From Bacteroidales bacterium (GTDB lineage Bacteria > Bacteroidota > Bacteroidia > Bacteroidales > VadinHA17): 32,610 nucleotides of DNA. The notes beneath the pieces are model-generated. The model had not been told where the DNA came from and ran no database searches. It saw only the letters and a list, made by a program, of their open reading frames with translations. Positions 6,838 through 29,243 of this stretch are shown here, piece by piece (within the stretch, counting starts at the first letter, position 1; every line of letters begins with the position of its first letter). Both the position numbers and the translations under genes were made by a program. Location of the stretch: assembly GCA_019429325.1 (NCBI GenBank), contig JAHYJA010000021.1, positions 1 to 32,610 on the forward strand, in the 5' to 3' direction.

Positions 6838-7180
6838 AGAGGGTTTCAAAGTTTCAGGGTTTCAGAGTTTCAAAGTTTGGCTTCGCCGAGCTCGCCTGTG
6901 GCTCGGTTCAGGGTTTCAAAGTTTGGCTTCGCCGAGCTCGCCTGTGGCCCGGTTCAGGGTTTCAAAGTTTCTGAGCTTCAAAGTTTCAGAGCTTCAAAGT
7001 CTGGCTTCGCCGGGCTCGGTCTGCTAAAGCAGTCCTCGGTTCAGAGTTTGGCTTCGCCGGACTCGCCTGTGGCTCGGTCCAGAGTTTCACAGTTCATGGT
7101 CATTTTTCTCTATGCGGCGTTATTCGCCCTTCGGGCGTCATTCGGTTTCGTCGTCATTTGTCCGCCAGATGGCGGAGGTC
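6838..7180. repeat. degenerate 46-bp repeat cluster with hairpins
   Basis: The stretch 6806-7204 between uvrC and the ATPase gene has no credible gene. GGCTTCGCCG occurs at 6879, 6925, 7003 and 7050, each followed by a variant of GAGCTCGCCTGTGGCTCGG and preceded by variants of GTTTCAAAGTTT; the first two copies are 46 bases apart and nearly identical, the later ones are diverged and have insertions. Small hairpins follow: CGCCC/GGGCG (7125-7137) and TCCGCC/GGCGGA (7161-7176). The open frame across it on the plus strand encodes only a repeating FxVSxFQS-like peptide and is not a gene. Confidence 0.7.
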
Positions 7181-11671: not shown

Positions 11672-13297
11672 TCATACAAACAGCGGCACAAACTGAAACT
11701 TCCTCCCGTCAAAGAGTCCCTTGTCGCTCAGTTTTAGTTCAGGTATCACAAGAAGGGCCATGAACGAGAGTGTCATGAAGGGCGCAGACAGGAGGGATCC
11801 CATTTCTTTAACTTTTCGAGAAAGATCTTCATATTGAGCGGCTATTGTGCTGACCGGCTTATCTGACATGATTCCTGCGATTGGCAGTGCCAGAGAACTT
11901 ATGTGATTTCCCTCTGCCACGGCCAATCCTCCCTTCATCTTAACAACCTCATTTATAGCATTAATAATATCATCATCGTTAGTTCCGATACAGATTATAT
12001 TATGACTGTCGTGAGCTACTGAACCGGCAAGGGCTCCCCTTTTTAGTCCGAAACCTTTTATGAATCCTGTTGCCGGCGCTGAATCCGTGTAACGATCCTT
12101 TACAACTATCTTCAGAATATCCCGGTTCAGATCTGGTAATACCCATGTTGCGGACGGAATATCAGCTATTATTTCCTTCGTCTGGAGCTCCCCATCAAAA
12201 GCTTCAATAACTCGTATTTTAGTCCCTGTTTTTCTGACTGTTATGCCTCCCTTTGATATCTTTGTACTGCAAAATTTGTTAGCCGGTTCAGCTCCCTTAT
12301 AATCAAAAAGGATCTTACCCCTGTCCCAGACTTTCCTTCCGTCGATCCATGTCTCAAGGACGTTCATTTCCCGGGGATTATCAACTACTATGAAGTCCGC
12401 AGGGTCTCCCGGCCTTAAAAGACCTGCTTCCAGTCCGTAATGTTTTGCCGGGTTCAGGGTACAGCTTCCGAGCACGTCAAATAGATCATACCCTTCGCTT
12501 ATCAGCCGGGCTGCAATCTTATTTATATGCCGTTTCTCCAGCATTTCGGGATGAAGATCATCGCTGCACAGCATAACCATATCCGGATGTGTGGCGATCA
12601 GCTCCTTAAGCGCCTCGAGGTTCCTTGCGGCACTTCCCTCGCGGATAAGAATCTTCATCCCCAGGGATATTTTTTCAAGCGCCTCTTCCATTTTGGTGCA
12701 CTCATGATCTGTAGATATACCCGCAAAAATATACTTTCTGAGGTTTTCACCCGTCAGTCCCGGAGAATGCCCGTCAACCGGTTTTCCCATTTTTACCGCT
12801 GACTCTATCTTTCTGTTTACTTCCGCATCGCCGTAAATAACTCCGGGGAAGTTCATCATTTCTGCAAGATATTTGATTTCCGGCATCTTAAGCAATTCAT
12901 CAACCCCCTGTGAATCAATCACTGCGCCTGAAGTCTCGAACGATGTAGCCGGCACGCAGGATGGTGCTCCGAACCAGAATTTAACCGGGACTTTCCCCGC
13001 ATCTTCAATCATGAATTTCACACCGTCTGTACCGAGTACATTTGCTATCTCATGGGGGTCGGAAACAACACCCGTTGTTCCACGTGAAACAGCGGCCATG
13101 GCAAAAGCGCCGGGTGTACACATTGAGCTTTCAATGTGAATGTGAGCATCTATAAGTCCCGGCATAATGAAGTTTTCAGAACCCGTTTCTTTTTCAATTA
13201 TCTCCTTTATGTATGTCCCTTCTACAATTATACGCCCCGGATATATTTTTCTCCGTTGTATATCCACTATTTTCCCTTCTATAATCATATTGTCCAA
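11672..13297 (-). CDS. ade: adenine deaminase
   Basis: A 541-residue amidohydrolase that converts adenine to hypoxanthine and ammonia in purine salvage. The N-terminal metal motif MPGLIDAHIHIESS is at about residues 45-58, VSDPHEIANVLG at about 80-91, DGHSPGL near 175 and STDHECT near 195; SDDLHPE lies near 243. The C-terminal domain typical of AdeC (RGALAGSVAHDSHNIICIGTND) follows at about 410-435. Length and motifs match the AdeC/YerA type of enzyme with dinuclear metal, not the adenosine-deaminase fold. The start at 13297 is supported by MIIEGKIVDI, the usual small beta-sandwich start. The codons for residues VSRGT contain a parS sequence (13076-13091). The gene is isolated downstream of the tandem repeats. 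Confidence 0.95.
   Translation of the reverse strand: MDNMIIEGKIVDIQRRKIYPGRIIVEGTYIKEIIEKETGSENFIMPGLIDAHIHIESSMCTPGAFAMAAVSRGTTGVVSDPHEIANVLGTDGVKFMIEDAGKVPVKFWFGAPSCVPATSFETSGAVIDSQGVDELLKMPEIKYLAEMMNFPGVIYGDAEVNRKIESAVKMGKPVDGHSPGLTGENLRKYIFAGISTDHECTKMEEALEKISLGMKILIREGSAARNLEALKELIATHPDMVMLCSDDLHPEMLEKRHINKIAARLISEGYDLFDVLGSCTLNPAKHYGLEAGLLRPGDPADFIVVDNPREMNVLETWIDGRKVWDRGKILFDYKGAEPANKFCSTKISKGGITVRKTGTKIRVIEAFDGELQTKEIIADIPSATWVLPDLNRDILKIVVKDRYTDSAPATGFIKGFGLKRGALAGSVAHDSHNIICIGTNDDDIINAINEVVKMKGGLAVAEGNHISSLALPIAGIMSDKPVSTIAAQYEDLSRKVKEMGSLLSAPFMTLSFMALLVIPELKLSDKGLFDGRKFQFVPLFV
13076..13091. other. parS: parS centromere-like site inside the adenine deaminase gene
   Basis: TGTTCCACGTGAAACA is a sequence well known as a ParB-binding parS site (the Bacillus subtilis consensus). 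It is read on the plus strand here, within codons for the conserved VSRGTTG stretch of adenine deaminase on the minus strand. A second site is 780 bases away. ParB clamps load at such sites to drive origin segregation. Confidence 0.75.
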
Positions 13298-13323
13298 TTT
13301 GTCAATCTATCATCAACAAGAAT

Positions 13324-13784
13324 CCGGTCATTGCGATACCGCGAAGCGGTAGAAGCAATCCTTATCTGCCTCCAGCGACCTATCCAATTAAGACCCCTTT
13401 TAGTCCCGGGGTTTGCTTCGTCGCTGCGCTCCTCGCAATGACTCGCCTTCAATGCTACCTCACTTCCTCCTGTAACACAATCCCAAATTGATTCACCGGT
13501 CATTGCGATACCGCGAAGCGGTAGAAGCAATCCTTACTGTCCTTCAGAGACCTTTCTAAGTTAAACCCCTTTAAGTCCAGGGGTTTGCTTCGTCGCTGCG
13601 CTCCTCGCAATGACTCGCCCTCAATGGCAGCTCTCTGCCTCCTGTAACACAATCCCAAATTAATTCACCGGTCATTGCGATACCGCGAAGCGGTAGAAGC
13701 AATCCTTAGCGGCCTCCAGCGACCGTCTAATTAAGACCCCTGTTAGTCCAGGGGTTTGCTTCGTCGCTGCGCTCCTCGCAATTA
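13324..13784. repeat. three tandem copies of a 172-bp palindromic repeat
   Basis: Copies start at 13324, 13496 and 13668, exactly 172 bases apart; the last lacks the final spacer part. Each begins CCGGTCATTGCGATACCGC and contains GAAGCAATCC, then about 45 bases later GGGGTTTGCTTCGTCGCTGC and CTCCTCGCAATG, so the unit core (about 115 bases) is an imperfect inverted repeat closed by CATTGCGA/TCGCAATG and GAAGCAA/TTGCTTC. Inner hairpins ACCGC-GAA-GCGGT and CCCCT…AGGGG are present. The CATTGCGAG…GAAGCAAT core is a widespread dispersed repeat of many bacteria; translated, it gives the familiar spurious CEERSDEA peptide. No gene lies in 13298-13855. Confidence 0.9.
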
Positions 13785-13855
13785 CCTTACCAACAAACAG
13801 GTGCGCTGCTAAACAATAAAATAAATAATTAAAATATTATTTCTATAAGTAAAAT

Positions 13856-13871
13856 TGTTCCACGTGGAACA
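13856..13871. other. parS: parS centromere-like site next to mnmG
   Basis: TGTTCCACGTGGAACA is a perfect 16-base palindrome and a known variant of the parS consensus. It lies 2 bases beyond the mnmG stop codon (13874-13876), preceded by a 60-base AT-rich stretch. mnmG (gidA) is a neighbour of parAB and of the replication origin in many bacteria, which agrees with the assignment. Confidence 0.8.
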
Positions 13872-13873
13872 TT

Positions 13874-15748
13874 CTATCTTCCCAGGTACAGTAAAAGAAT
13901 GCTTATGTCCGATGGTGACACACCGCTTATCCTCTGGGCCTGTCCAATTGTTGAAGGTCTTATCCTTCCAAGTTTTTGCCTTCCTTCCGTTGAAATTGAA
14001 ACCAGCTCTGTGTAATCAATATCTTCAGGTATTTTAAGTTTTTCAAGCCTCTTTAATTTATCCGCAATAATTTTCTCTCTTGAAATGTAACCCTCATATT
14101 TAATTCTTATCTGAGCCGCTTCAACTACCTCCTCCTCAATATCCGAATCATTAAATCTCAGTTCTTTTGAATCTCCCAGTATTTTCAGCAGCTCCTTAAC
14201 TTCTACTTCAGGTCTGCTTGCTATTGCTATTGCCTTTAACTTTTGTGCTATCCCTTTCGTTTTCTTTTCTGCAAGAAAGGTGTTGATCTCATCCGGAGCC
14301 ACGCTTCTTGTCCTGAGAAAAGATATAATTTCCTTCGTCACTTCCTCCTTTCTTCCAAGCTTCTCCATCCTTTCCCTTCCAGCGAGTCCCAGATTATATC
14401 CCTTTCCCGTCAGTCTATCATCTGCATTATCCTGACGCAAAAGAATCCTGTACTCTGCCCTTGATGTGAACATCCTGTAAGGTTCGTCTACTCCTTTTGT
14501 AACCAGGTCATCAATCAGTACACCTATGTATGCTTCCTCACGGCCAAGTATAAAAGGTTCTTCTCCCCGTATTTTCCTAACAGCATTAATTCCTGCCATT
14601 AAACCTTGCGCTCCCGCCTCCTCATAACCGGTAGTACCGTTAATCTGGCCGGCAAAATAAAGATTTTCGGCTCTTTTTGTCTCCAGTGTGTGTGTCAATT
14701 GAGTCGGCTGAAAGTAATCGTATTCTATTGCGTATCCTGGTCTGAAAATTTCAATATTTTCAAGTCCTTTTACCTTTCTCAGGGCTTTAAGCTGATACTC
14801 CAGAGGCAGACTGCTTGCAAAACCATTTATATAATACTCTGTTGTCTCCCTGCCCTCCGGCTCTATGAAAAGCTGATGAGTATCTTTCTCCCTGAAAGTA
14901 ACAATCTTATCTTCTATGCTCGGACAATATCTCGGACCTCTTCCCTTAATAATGCCCTGATATAAAGGGCTGTATTTCAATCCCTCTTCAATAATTTCAT
15001 GTACTTTACTGTTAGTATGAGTAATATAACAGCTTCTCTGGTCAATGATTTCCTTTTTCCCCGTCAGGTATGAAAATGTTCTTCCGTCCTCATCTCCTCT
15101 CTGTTCAACCATCCTGCTGAAATCTATTGTTCTTCCGTCTATTCGTGCGCTTGTGCCCGTCTTCATTCTCTCAACAGTGAATCCCATCTCCGCCAGCTGA
15201 TCGCTCAGTCCTGTCGAAGCCCTGTCGCCTGACCTTCCACCCATAATTTGATTAAAGCCCACATGCATAAGTGCATTAAGAAAGGTGCCATTTGTAAGAA
15301 TTACTGCTGATGCATAGAATTTTGTTCCAAATGTCGTCTCCACCCCTTCTATTCCATTCTTTCCTATAATCAGCGACTTTGCCTCCTCCTGCCAGATAAA
15401 AAGGTTATCCGTACTTTCCACTATCTTACGCCATTCTATTGTAAATCTCTGTCTGTCGCACTGCGCCCGCGGGCTCCACATTGCCGGCCCCTTTGATTTG
15501 TTCAGCATTCTGTACTGTATCATGCTTCTGTCGGTGACCAGGCCGCTACATCCACCAAGAGCGTCAATTTCCCTGACTATCTGACCCTTTGCAATACCAC
15601 CCATTGCGGGATTGCATGACATCTGCGCTATTTTCGTCATATCCATGGTAACCAGCAATGTACGCGAACCCATCCTGGCCGCGGCACGCGCAGCTTCACA
15701 GCCGGCGTGTCCCCCTCCTACAACGATTATTTCGTACCTGAATTCCAT
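13874..15748 (-). CDS. mnmG: tRNA uridine-5-carboxymethylaminomethyl(34) synthesis enzyme MnmG
   Basis: A 624-residue FAD enzyme that with MnmE adds the (carboxymethyl)aminomethyl group to U34 of certain tRNAs. The dinucleotide-binding motif GGGHAGCEAA is at residues 11-20, SCNPAMGGIAKGQIVREIDALGG at about 44-66, NGTFLNALMHVG near 152, and the second signature FTSRAEYRILLRQDNADDRLT near 425. The C-terminal helical domain that contacts MnmE and tRNA ends in SGVSPSDISILLLYLGR, so the protein is complete. The 5' end overlaps ybeY by 22 bases (15727-15748), making it the last gene of the seven-gene minus-strand run. A parS site follows directly. Confidence 0.98.
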   Translation of the reverse strand: MEFRYEIIVVGGGHAGCEAARAAARMGSRTLLVTMDMTKIAQMSCNPAMGGIAKGQIVREIDALGGCSGLVTDRSMIQYRMLNKSKGPAMWSPRAQCDRQRFTIEWRKIVESTDNLFIWQEEAKSLIIGKNGIEGVETTFGTKFYASAVILTNGTFLNALMHVGFNQIMGGRSGDRASTGLSDQLAEMGFTVERMKTGTSARIDGRTIDFSRMVEQRGDEDGRTFSYLTGKKEIIDQRSCYITHTNSKVHEIIEEGLKYSPLYQGIIKGRGPRYCPSIEDKIVTFREKDTHQLFIEPEGRETTEYYINGFASSLPLEYQLKALRKVKGLENIEIFRPGYAIEYDYFQPTQLTHTLETKRAENLYFAGQINGTTGYEEAGAQGLMAGINAVRKIRGEEPFILGREEAYIGVLIDDLVTKGVDEPYRMFTSRAEYRILLRQDNADDRLTGKGYNLGLAGRERMEKLGRKEEVTKEIISFLRTRSVAPDEINTFLAEKKTKGIAQKLKAIAIASRPEVEVKELLKILGDSKELRFNDSDIEEEVVEAAQIRIKYEGYISREKIIADKLKRLEKLKIPEDIDYTELVSISTEGRQKLGRIRPSTIGQAQRISGVSPSDISILLLYLGR

Positions 15749-27294: not shown

Positions 27295-28248
27295 TCAGAG
27301 TCCTGCATTTTTTGATATTTCCAACATTCTCAATATTGGTTTGCGAGCTTCGTTCAATATCTTATCACTGATTATTATTTCAGGTTTTTCATATACAAGG
27401 CAGTTATATATTTTCTCCATTGTGATAAGTTTCATAAAATTGCATTCACTGCAACCGCATGTTGAATCGCGGGGAGGAGCCGGTATATAAGTCTTTTCCG
27501 GATTCTCTCTCTTCATCTGATGTATTATGCCCGGTTCAGTTGCTACAATATACGATTTTCCTTCATCTTTACGTGTAAAATTAAGCAATGCTGATGTTGA
27601 TCCTATAAAATCGGCAACCATTCTGACCGGTAGTTCACACTCAGGATGTGCAATTATTTTCGCATCGGGATTTACTTTTTTTATATCAAGGATCGCCTCG
27701 AGCGAAAATTCTTCGTGTACATGACATGTGCCGTTCCAGATAAGCATGTCTCTTTCTGTCCTGCTCTGTATATAATTTCCAAGGTTTCTGTCGGGAGCAA
27801 ATATTACCTTTTCTCCGGCTGGAAGTGATTCAATGATCTGCACTGCATTGGAGGAAGTACAGATGATATCCGATAAAGCCTTTATGTCAGTATTTGTATT
27901 TACATAAGTGACGACTGTCCTTCCCGGATTTGCTTCAATGAATTTTTTAAATTCAACAGGATCGCATGAATCAGCAAGAGAACATCCGGCATTCATATCC
28001 GGCAGAAGCACTTTCTTTTCCGGAGCAAGTATCTTTGCTGTCTCAGCCATAAACTTAACCCCTGCAAACAAAATAATATCAGCATCCGTATCAGCTGCCT
28101 TCTGAGAAAGAGCGAGACTGTCACCAATATAATCAGCAATATCCTGGATGTCTCCGGTCTGATAATAATGGGCAAGTATCACCGTATTCTTCTCATCCTT
28201 AAGTCTTTTTATTTCAGAAATATAATCTGTTGACAATCCCCCTTCCAT
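27295..28248 (-). CDS. nadA: quinolinate synthase
   Basis: A 317-residue iron-sulfur enzyme that condenses iminoaspartate with dihydroxyacetone phosphate to quinolinate in NAD synthesis. The family motifs are present: ILAHYYQ (24-30), the Tyr of the active site there, GVKFMAETAKIL (63-74), and the cysteines for the oxygen-sensitive 4Fe-4S cluster, most likely Cys89 (AGCSLADSC), Cys175 (NGTCHVHEEF) and one of the CGCSEC group at 264-269. Length is that of the short NadA type. nadB and nadC are not in the window. It is the first gene of the nadA-MORN-ruvB run and reads away from a 557-base AT-rich gap. Confidence 0.96.
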   Translation of the reverse strand: MEGGLSTDYISEIKRLKDEKNTVILAHYYQTGDIQDIADYIGDSLALSQKAADTDADIILFAGVKFMAETAKILAPEKKVLLPDMNAGCSLADSCDPVEFKKFIEANPGRTVVTYVNTNTDIKALSDIICTSSNAVQIIESLPAGEKVIFAPDRNLGNYIQSRTERDMLIWNGTCHVHEEFSLEAILDIKKVNPDAKIIAHPECELPVRMVADFIGSTSALLNFTRKDEGKSYIVATEPGIIHQMKRENPEKTYIPAPPRDSTCGCSECNFMKLITMEKIYNCLVYEKPEIIISDKILNEARKPILRMLEISKNAGL

Positions 28249-28805
28249 ACTTTCCTGCTATTTACGGTATTATATTATTAACATCTTTAATTTTAAAACA
28301 TATAAAAATTTAAATTTCTTTTGATTATAGTTATATCCTGTTAATTGTGTTAAAAATTTAAGGTAATTTTCCTTGTTTTTTACATTATTATCATGAGATA
28401 AACATCTTTTGAACAGCTCAAAAAATATACCAATTTTGAAAATCAGATCATTAGTCTGTTAATTAACAATTGTTAAGATATAATTGTTGATAATCAGATT
28501 AAGGCAAAAGTAAAATATTTGAGGTTTATATTTAGTTTAAAAATTGATTTAATTTTCTGATAAATCTGTGACCAGAGGTGAACTACTCTGATTTGGGCTT
28601 GAGATTGTTAAGAAAACAAAAGATTTAACATTTTATCGCTTAATTATCCCCTTGTTTTTCAACATTAATACAGAACGGGTATTACAGAAACAAAAAAAGG
28701 TTATATATGTTAATAAGGATATTAGCATGTTTTTTTCTTAAAACAGACTAATTGTGTTAATTTGCATGATAATAAAAAAGAAAACTGAATAAAGAAGAAA
28801 ATAAG
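28249..28805. other. AT-rich intergenic region between divergent nadA and rpiB
   Basis: There is no credible gene in these 557 bases, which are far more AT-rich than the surroundings. Visible elements are the 14-base palindrome TTAACAATTGTTAA (28463-28476); TGTTGATAA (28485-28493), one base from the DnaA-box consensus; the 12-mer TAATTGTGTTAA at both ends (28342-28353 and 28749-28760); AATCAGAT at 28441 and 28493; and a short CAGAG/CTCTG hairpin near 28575-28592. It may be just a long double promoter region, or an origin or regulatory locus. TTAATTTG at 28757-28764 is a possible -7 element of rpiB. Confidence 0.5.
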
Positions 28806-29243
28806 ATGAGAATCATCATAGCATCGGATCATGCAGGGTTTCATCTTAAAGAGAAAATAGTAAGATTTCTGGCAGGCGGGAAGCATGAGGTAAAGGATAT
28901 CGGAAGTTATTCTGACGAAGCAGTCGATTATCCTGATTACGGGCATCTGCTTGCAACAGAATTATTAAAGGGGGGATACGATCTAGGGATATCAATATGC
29001 GGTACGGGTAACGGCATAAACATGGTTGTGAACAAGCATCAGGGAATAAGAAGCGCCTTATGCTGGAATGAAGAGATTAGTCGCCTGGCAAGGGCGCATA
29101 ACGACGCCAACATCTGTGCCCTGCCGGCAAGGTTTATCACTGAACCGGAGGCATTGCTTATAGTAAAAACTTTCGTGAATACTTCTTTTGAGGGAGGGAG
29201 GCATAAAAGAAGAATAGATAAAATACCGGTAAAAACAGATTGA
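28806..29243 (+). CDS. rpiB: ribose-5-phosphate isomerase B
   Basis: A 145-residue enzyme of the RpiB/LacAB family interconverting ribulose 5-phosphate and ribose 5-phosphate in the pentose phosphate pathway. The substrate-binding ASDHAG is at residues 6-11, the catalytic Cys65 lies in SICGTGNGINMVVNK, and LARAHNDANICALPAR (about 93-108) carries the His that opens the ring. Cys at position 65 indicates the RpiB function rather than allose or galactose-specific relatives, though not decisively. The stop codon is one base before the ATG of the following Rrf2 gene, so the two are coupled. Confidence 0.95.
   Translation: MRIIIASDHAGFHLKEKIVRFLAGGKHEVKDIGSYSDEAVDYPDYGHLLATELLKGGYDLGISICGTGNGINMVVNKHQGIRSALCWNEEISRLARAHNDANICALPARFITEPEALLIVKTFVNTSFEGGRHKRRIDKIPVKTD

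Follow-up and report, generated by a model that had tools for sequence, protein, structure and literature searches.

The closest described counterpart of the locus reported here is the chromosomal ParABS system (ParA, ParB/Spo0J, and parS), with which it shares a 16-bp palindrome, a ParA-ParB pair, a small number of sites, and a position near the predicted origin of replication. In other bacteria, it is established that ParB is loaded onto the DNA as a clamp and then spreads, and one parS site of Bacillus subtilis is located inside the spo0J reading frame. In the nucleoid occlusion system formed by Noc and its NBS sites, many such sites are found over the chromosome.

For gut bacteria, the sections of PMC10197239 on parS print the 16-bp consensus and place parS clusters at the origin in 12 species, including Bacteroides caecimuris and Muribaculum intestinale, the origins being called from these clusters together with the GC skew. 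They also state that dnaA is not a marker of the origin in every case. Those sections describe neither an anchoring gene nor an in-frame site, and a limited literature search found no report linking parS to mnmG in the Bacteroidota.

The ParABS system described below is an ordinary one, and what is unusual is the tight, phylum-wide link of its sites to mnmG, with parAB lying elsewhere in the source genome, together with an in-frame copy in the adenine deaminase gene (ade) that has fixed codons and changed amino acids. In contrast to the typical chromosomal ParABS, parAB is on another contig and not beside parS, the sites stay with mnmG over much of the phylum, and one of them is read in frame within ade. 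This last site resembles that of B. subtilis spo0J in lying within a reading frame, but here the gene encodes an unrelated metabolic enzyme, the site is accompanied by an amino acid change, and it has been gained or lost several times in a single genus.

The two parS sites and the intervening repeat

The window, i.e., the whole stretch of 32,610 nucleotides that was analysed, is the entire contig C223 of a genome of 263 contigs and 3.39 Mb, the host of which is a bacterium of the Bacteroidota, probably of the order Bacteroidales. The features discussed are collected in Table 1.

Table 1. Features of the window, with positions counted from its first nucleotide.
Feature	Position	Strand	Basis or remark
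ade, adenine deaminase	11672-13297	-	NCBIfam TIGR01178, 600.8 bits
parS site inside ade	13076-13091		exact 16-mer; in frame over codons 69-74 (A-V-S-R-G-T)
Tandem repeat, 172-bp unit, 2.7 copies	13324-13782	+	Tandem Repeats Finder; local insert
parS site by the mnmG stop	13856-13871		exact 16-mer, perfect palindrome
mnmG (tRNA modification)	13874-15748	-	NCBIfam TIGR00136, 813.8 bits
nadA, left flank of predicted oriC	27295-28248	-	Pfam NadA
Predicted oriC, nadA-rpiB gap	28249-28805		skew minimum, AT-rich, TGTTAA cluster
rpiB, right flank of predicted oriC	28806-29243	+	Pfam LacAB_rpiB

A sequence-only reading of this DNA had proposed two exact parS 16-mers, 780 bp apart from start to start, the second of them separated by 2 bp from the stop codon of mnmG, and both were found there, the stop codon occupying positions 13874-13876. 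Both match the printed consensus exactly (PMC10197239). The rarity claimed for such matches also holds, as 0.0036 places would be expected in 3.39 Mb, against the two exact ones found, and only 0.000035 places in the window alone, both figures being for a base composition of 43% GC. When up to three mismatches were allowed, the window returned four matches, which correspond to two places on both strands, and none of 100 shuffles scored as high. In the whole genome, at up to two mismatches, five forward and six reverse matches were recovered at six places, against 0 and 0 for the reversed-pattern control; these places are the two exact sites, which are the only ones, one site with a single mismatch, and three with two. 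The many scattered copies that had been named as a sign against the proposal are, in fact, few.

The site with one mismatch (C243:15856-15871; L003 1501-1516) is flanked by genes that resemble, by eye, a transposase and a metallopeptidase, and the open reading frames of the first 20 kb of this contig had no tblastn match in 400 kb of the relative G096. In the window, nothing matched Rfam at the gathering threshold, and short tandem repeats of 8, 16, and 46 bp are present at positions 6840-7000, upstream of uvrC.

The two sites do flank a tandem repeat, as had been noted, and the array was considered as a possible part of the centromere, a candidate that was rejected, given that the copies are confined to the array and are rarely found in relatives. 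The genome has three copies of the 172-bp unit, all in the window array, together with one partial match of 38 bp on contig C143, and among the loci of relatives that were compared, only L132 was matched, by a copy with 78% similarity. The unit has a strong predicted hairpin. Across the 26 loci of the genus that have two core sites, the spacing is 188-780 bp in 22 (window included) and 1660-1854 bp in the other four, which indicates that the pair of sites is independent of the repeat.

Association of parS with mnmG

The link between parS and mnmG was followed in samples of increasing breadth. Among 60 near relatives, comprising the source genome, 35 others of the genus, and 24 representing further families, 52 have a site matching with no more than one mismatch and eight have none, the reversed control being matched in four. 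The order was sampled through one genome per family with a completeness of at least 90%, of which 94 of 99 genomes (source genome included) yielded mnmG, and was searched with the 14-mer core GTTYCACGTGRAAC. This core is present in 86 of the 98 other families and absent in 12, while the reversed control gave three sites across the 98 genomes. A total of 142 core sites were recovered, 103 of them 3' of mnmG and 24 of them 5' (each within 3 kb), with one inside the gene, six farther off on the mnmG contig, and eight on another contig, such that 128 sites, in 84 of the 98 genomes, lie inside mnmG or within 3 kb of it. The median position of the 3' sites is approximately 9 bp past the mnmG stop.

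The core was missing from all five genomes without a recovered mnmG, against seven of the 93 with one (p 1.2e-5), a pattern that would follow if the mnmG region bearing those sites had not been assembled. The association breaks down in G118, whose sites are at a distance of 95 kb from mnmG, and in G103, where the sites are on the contig that bears rpiB.

The association extends well beyond the order. In the best 80 named loci, retrieved by MnmG alone from among at least 585 confirmed stretches, a core site was found within 1 kb in 70 loci and none in 10, with 130 core sites in 1.53 Mb against 0 for the reversed motif. These named loci include Alistipes, Dysgonomonas, Porphyromonas, Olleya, Flavobacterium, Chryseobacterium, Tenacibaculum, Algoriphagus, and Roseivirga. 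Across a sample of the whole phylum, the core was present in 56 of 59 genomes and, among the matches listed, 32 of 33 genomes have a core no more than 1 kb from mnmG, some of them outside the class. From these comparisons, the parS site 3' of mnmG appears to be an anchor conserved over much of the phylum Bacteroidota. Sites read in frame were also seen within mnmG itself in a member of the Cryomorphaceae (L235, 1523) and within uvrC in G125 (L274, 2482).

The site inside ade

The sequence-only reading had placed the first site within the ade coding sequence, which is correct, and had taken its VSRGT residues to be conserved in adenine deaminases, which they are not. An ade match was obtained in 56 of 62 genomes of the genus, and 53 of these genes (50 + 3) were readable at the site. 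V-S-R-G-T is found in 26 of the 53, encoded in all 26 by GTT TCA CGT GGA, with ACA as the next codon in 23 and a T as the preceding base in 23. In the remaining 27, the site is absent and His (26 genes) or Gln (one gene) stands in the place of Arg, with varied codons, from which it follows that the ade site is not the by-product of a conserved motif. VSRGT was accordingly rejected as a conserved enzyme motif, given that in the genes of the genus it occurs only alongside the DNA site. Five genes with VPHGT read GTT CCA CAT GGA ACA, one mismatch from parS.

Such fixity of codons is rare within the gene. In the 25 VSRGT genes other than a remnant described below, only one of 188 other columns that are conserved in amino acid and neither Met nor Trp is codon-invariant, and this column is a His, which has two codons; CGT, moreover, accounts for 41 of the 536 Arg codons elsewhere in these genes. 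On a quick ade tree of 49 rows, built with residues 66-78 removed, the distribution of the site needs at least five changes, four of which well-supported branches make unavoidable, whereas shuffled labels need 16.7, and several gains or losses of the site have therefore occurred.

In G003, the ade gene is a remnant with stops that matches only at about residues 13-84 and 502-540, and yet its 16-mer is intact. The remainder of the first piece has at most 69% DNA identity to the other 25 genes, and the chance survival of the 16-mer would be 0.69^16, or about 0.3%, on the assumption of free decay, although its retention could reflect decay that is recent. Two N also occur in this stretch, near the mnmG site.

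Outside the genus, parS is found at the equivalent ade codons in G121 (VSRGT), G064 (VPRGT), and Carboxylicivirga (VPRGT), the last of which is perhaps of the same family as G121 or G064. Adenine deaminases in other loci have Arg in one of 13 cases, that of Carboxylicivirga. The solved adenine deaminase 3nqb has Arg at the equivalent position, and the change from His to Arg is thus likely to be tolerated. A divergent ade clade (L127-L130, VVHGT) has neither parS nor an mnmG end in the stretch examined, and is perhaps a paralogue. Taken across these genes, the second parS site appears more mobile than the mnmG anchor.

The predicted origin of replication

The window reaches its lowest cumulative GC skew at position 28,431, within the 557-bp gap between nadA and rpiB, which is 77% AT and has 10 copies of TGTTAA, against 1.3 in shuffles, none of 1000 of which reach 10. 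Classical DnaA boxes (TTATNCACA) were rejected as a mark of oriC, with 27 in the window against 32 expected, and the likely oriC would instead carry an unusual repeated word, TGTTAA. As the window ends 4 kb beyond the minimum, this minimum is weak on its own.

In four long relatives, the distance between parS and the skew minimum of the stretch examined is 6.5-46 kb. The minimum of a 400-kb stretch of G096 (368,090) is in the nadA-rpiB gap, where the TGTTAA count is also at its highest, with parS at 13 kb, and that of a 125-kb contig of G121 (76,320) is just upstream of rpiB, with eight TGTTAA and parS at 34 kb. In a 200-kb stretch of G104, the minimum (268,559) is at the AT-richest place, 4 kb from rpiB and 6.5 kb from parS, with no TGTTAA cluster there. 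A 400-kb stretch of G050 has a broad minimum (377,745) at about 21 kb from rpiB and 45 kb from parS, although rpiB is where its AT content and TGTTAA count are highest. The median distance between mnmG and rpiB is 13.3 kb in the 30 of 98 order genomes that have both on one shared contig, a figure biased to short distances.

Taken together, the skew minimum, the features of the gap, and the layout of the relatives indicate that the window probably holds oriC, most likely in the nadA-rpiB gap. The earlier placing of the window near oriC accords with this, with the parS pair 14-15 kb from the skew minimum and oriC itself being a prediction. In the source genome, dnaA is on contig C233, and oriC is commonly far from dnaA in the Bacteroidetes (PMC4755523).

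ParA and ParB

A parB gene, the presence of which had been proposed as a check, is found on contig C12 (C12:8588-9469), and adjoins parA. It is of the chromosomal type (PF02195, E 2.3e-33) and scores over the cut-off of the NCBIfam model TIGR00180. The parA gene (C12:9486-10265) is 16 bp from parB on the same strand and matches ParA-type NCBIfam models with scores under their cut-offs; the two genes presumably form one operon. The suggestion that parAB might lie near mnmG, as in other bacteria, does not apply in this genome. A second protein with a ParB_N domain is encoded on contig C164, beside a gene that resembles a transposase by eye.

The solved proteins closest to the parB product are Noc (7nfu) and ParB, and its top NCBIfam model is that of Noc, with a score of 232 against a cut-off of 315. 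In the Noc alignment, read by eye, R and G stand at the equivalents of Caulobacter residues 173 and 201, which differ between the readers of parS and those of NBS (PMC7383237), and the base-reading residues thus seem to be of the parS type and not of the Noc type. A Noc/NBS system was rejected on these two grounds, i.e., the residues and the score of the Noc model.

Alternative explanations

The palindrome past mnmG may be read as a transcription terminator, or as the operator of some other regulator with a CACGTG core, instead of a centromere. The palindrome is able to form a short hairpin, and the order sample places 63 of its 103 3' sites no more than 20 bp from the mnmG stop. Against this, the motif also occurs 5' of mnmG (24 sites) and inside the frames of ade, mnmG, or uvrC, its letters match the ParB consensus whereas a hairpin with a run of T would suffice for a terminator, and the genome has a parB with what appear to be parS-type residues, which together leave this explanation scarcely credible.

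It is also very improbable, if marginally less so, that only the site at the mnmG stop is parS and that codon choice at a short motif produced the ade copy by coincidence. A coincidence would be eased by the V-x-H/R-G-T frame being only a few bases from parS, as the five VPHGT genes illustrate, by the Arg at the equivalent place in 3nqb, and by the 27 of 53 readable genes that do without the site. These points are outweighed by the invariance of four codons in 26 of 26 genes where CGT is otherwise rare, by the retention of the 16-mer in the decayed gene of G003, and by the in-frame recurrence at equivalent codon positions, with different codons, in G121, G064, and Carboxylicivirga.

Proposed mechanism and significance

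Given the computed identity, rarity, location, and conservation of the sites, the invariance of the codons, the presence of parAB, and the skew minimum, the two 16-mers are, with high confidence, genuine chromosomal parS sites near the predicted oriC, consisting of an anchor at mnmG and a mobile in-frame site in ade. The computable checks of the segregation centre near oriC proposed for this member of the Bacteroidota came out in its favour. By analogy with the systems of other bacteria, ParB produced from the parAB pair of contig C12 would bind the two parS sites, load there as a clamp, and spread over mnmG and ade, and ParA would then move the copied origin regions apart. We infer from this a role of the locus in chromosome segregation, with the nadA-rpiB gap acting as oriC. 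In ade, the in-frame site keeps synonymous codons fixed and accompanies the change from mostly x-His to Ser-Arg.

Somewhat better than evenly balanced, in our estimation, is the broader proposal that the centromere has been attached to mnmG since the early Bacteroidota, even with parAB elsewhere, and that a second copy repeatedly invades neighbouring reading frames, with selection for ParB binding overriding the codons and residues of ade (V-x-H-G-T to V-S/P-R-G-T). At the ade site, a DNA-binding sequence within a gene seems to have altered the protein, a natural example for which near-sites and a decayed gene are available.

The association with mnmG also offers a simple rule, i.e., that the centromere, and roughly the origin, of Bacteroidota genomes, including fragmented metagenome assemblies, may be searched for beside mnmG, which is useful given that dnaA is a poor guide to the origin there (PMC4755523, PMC10197239). 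Finally, no known condensin was found in two Bacteroidetes (PMC10197239), for which reason a defined ParB loading site there would help in finding the factor that aligns the chromosome arms.
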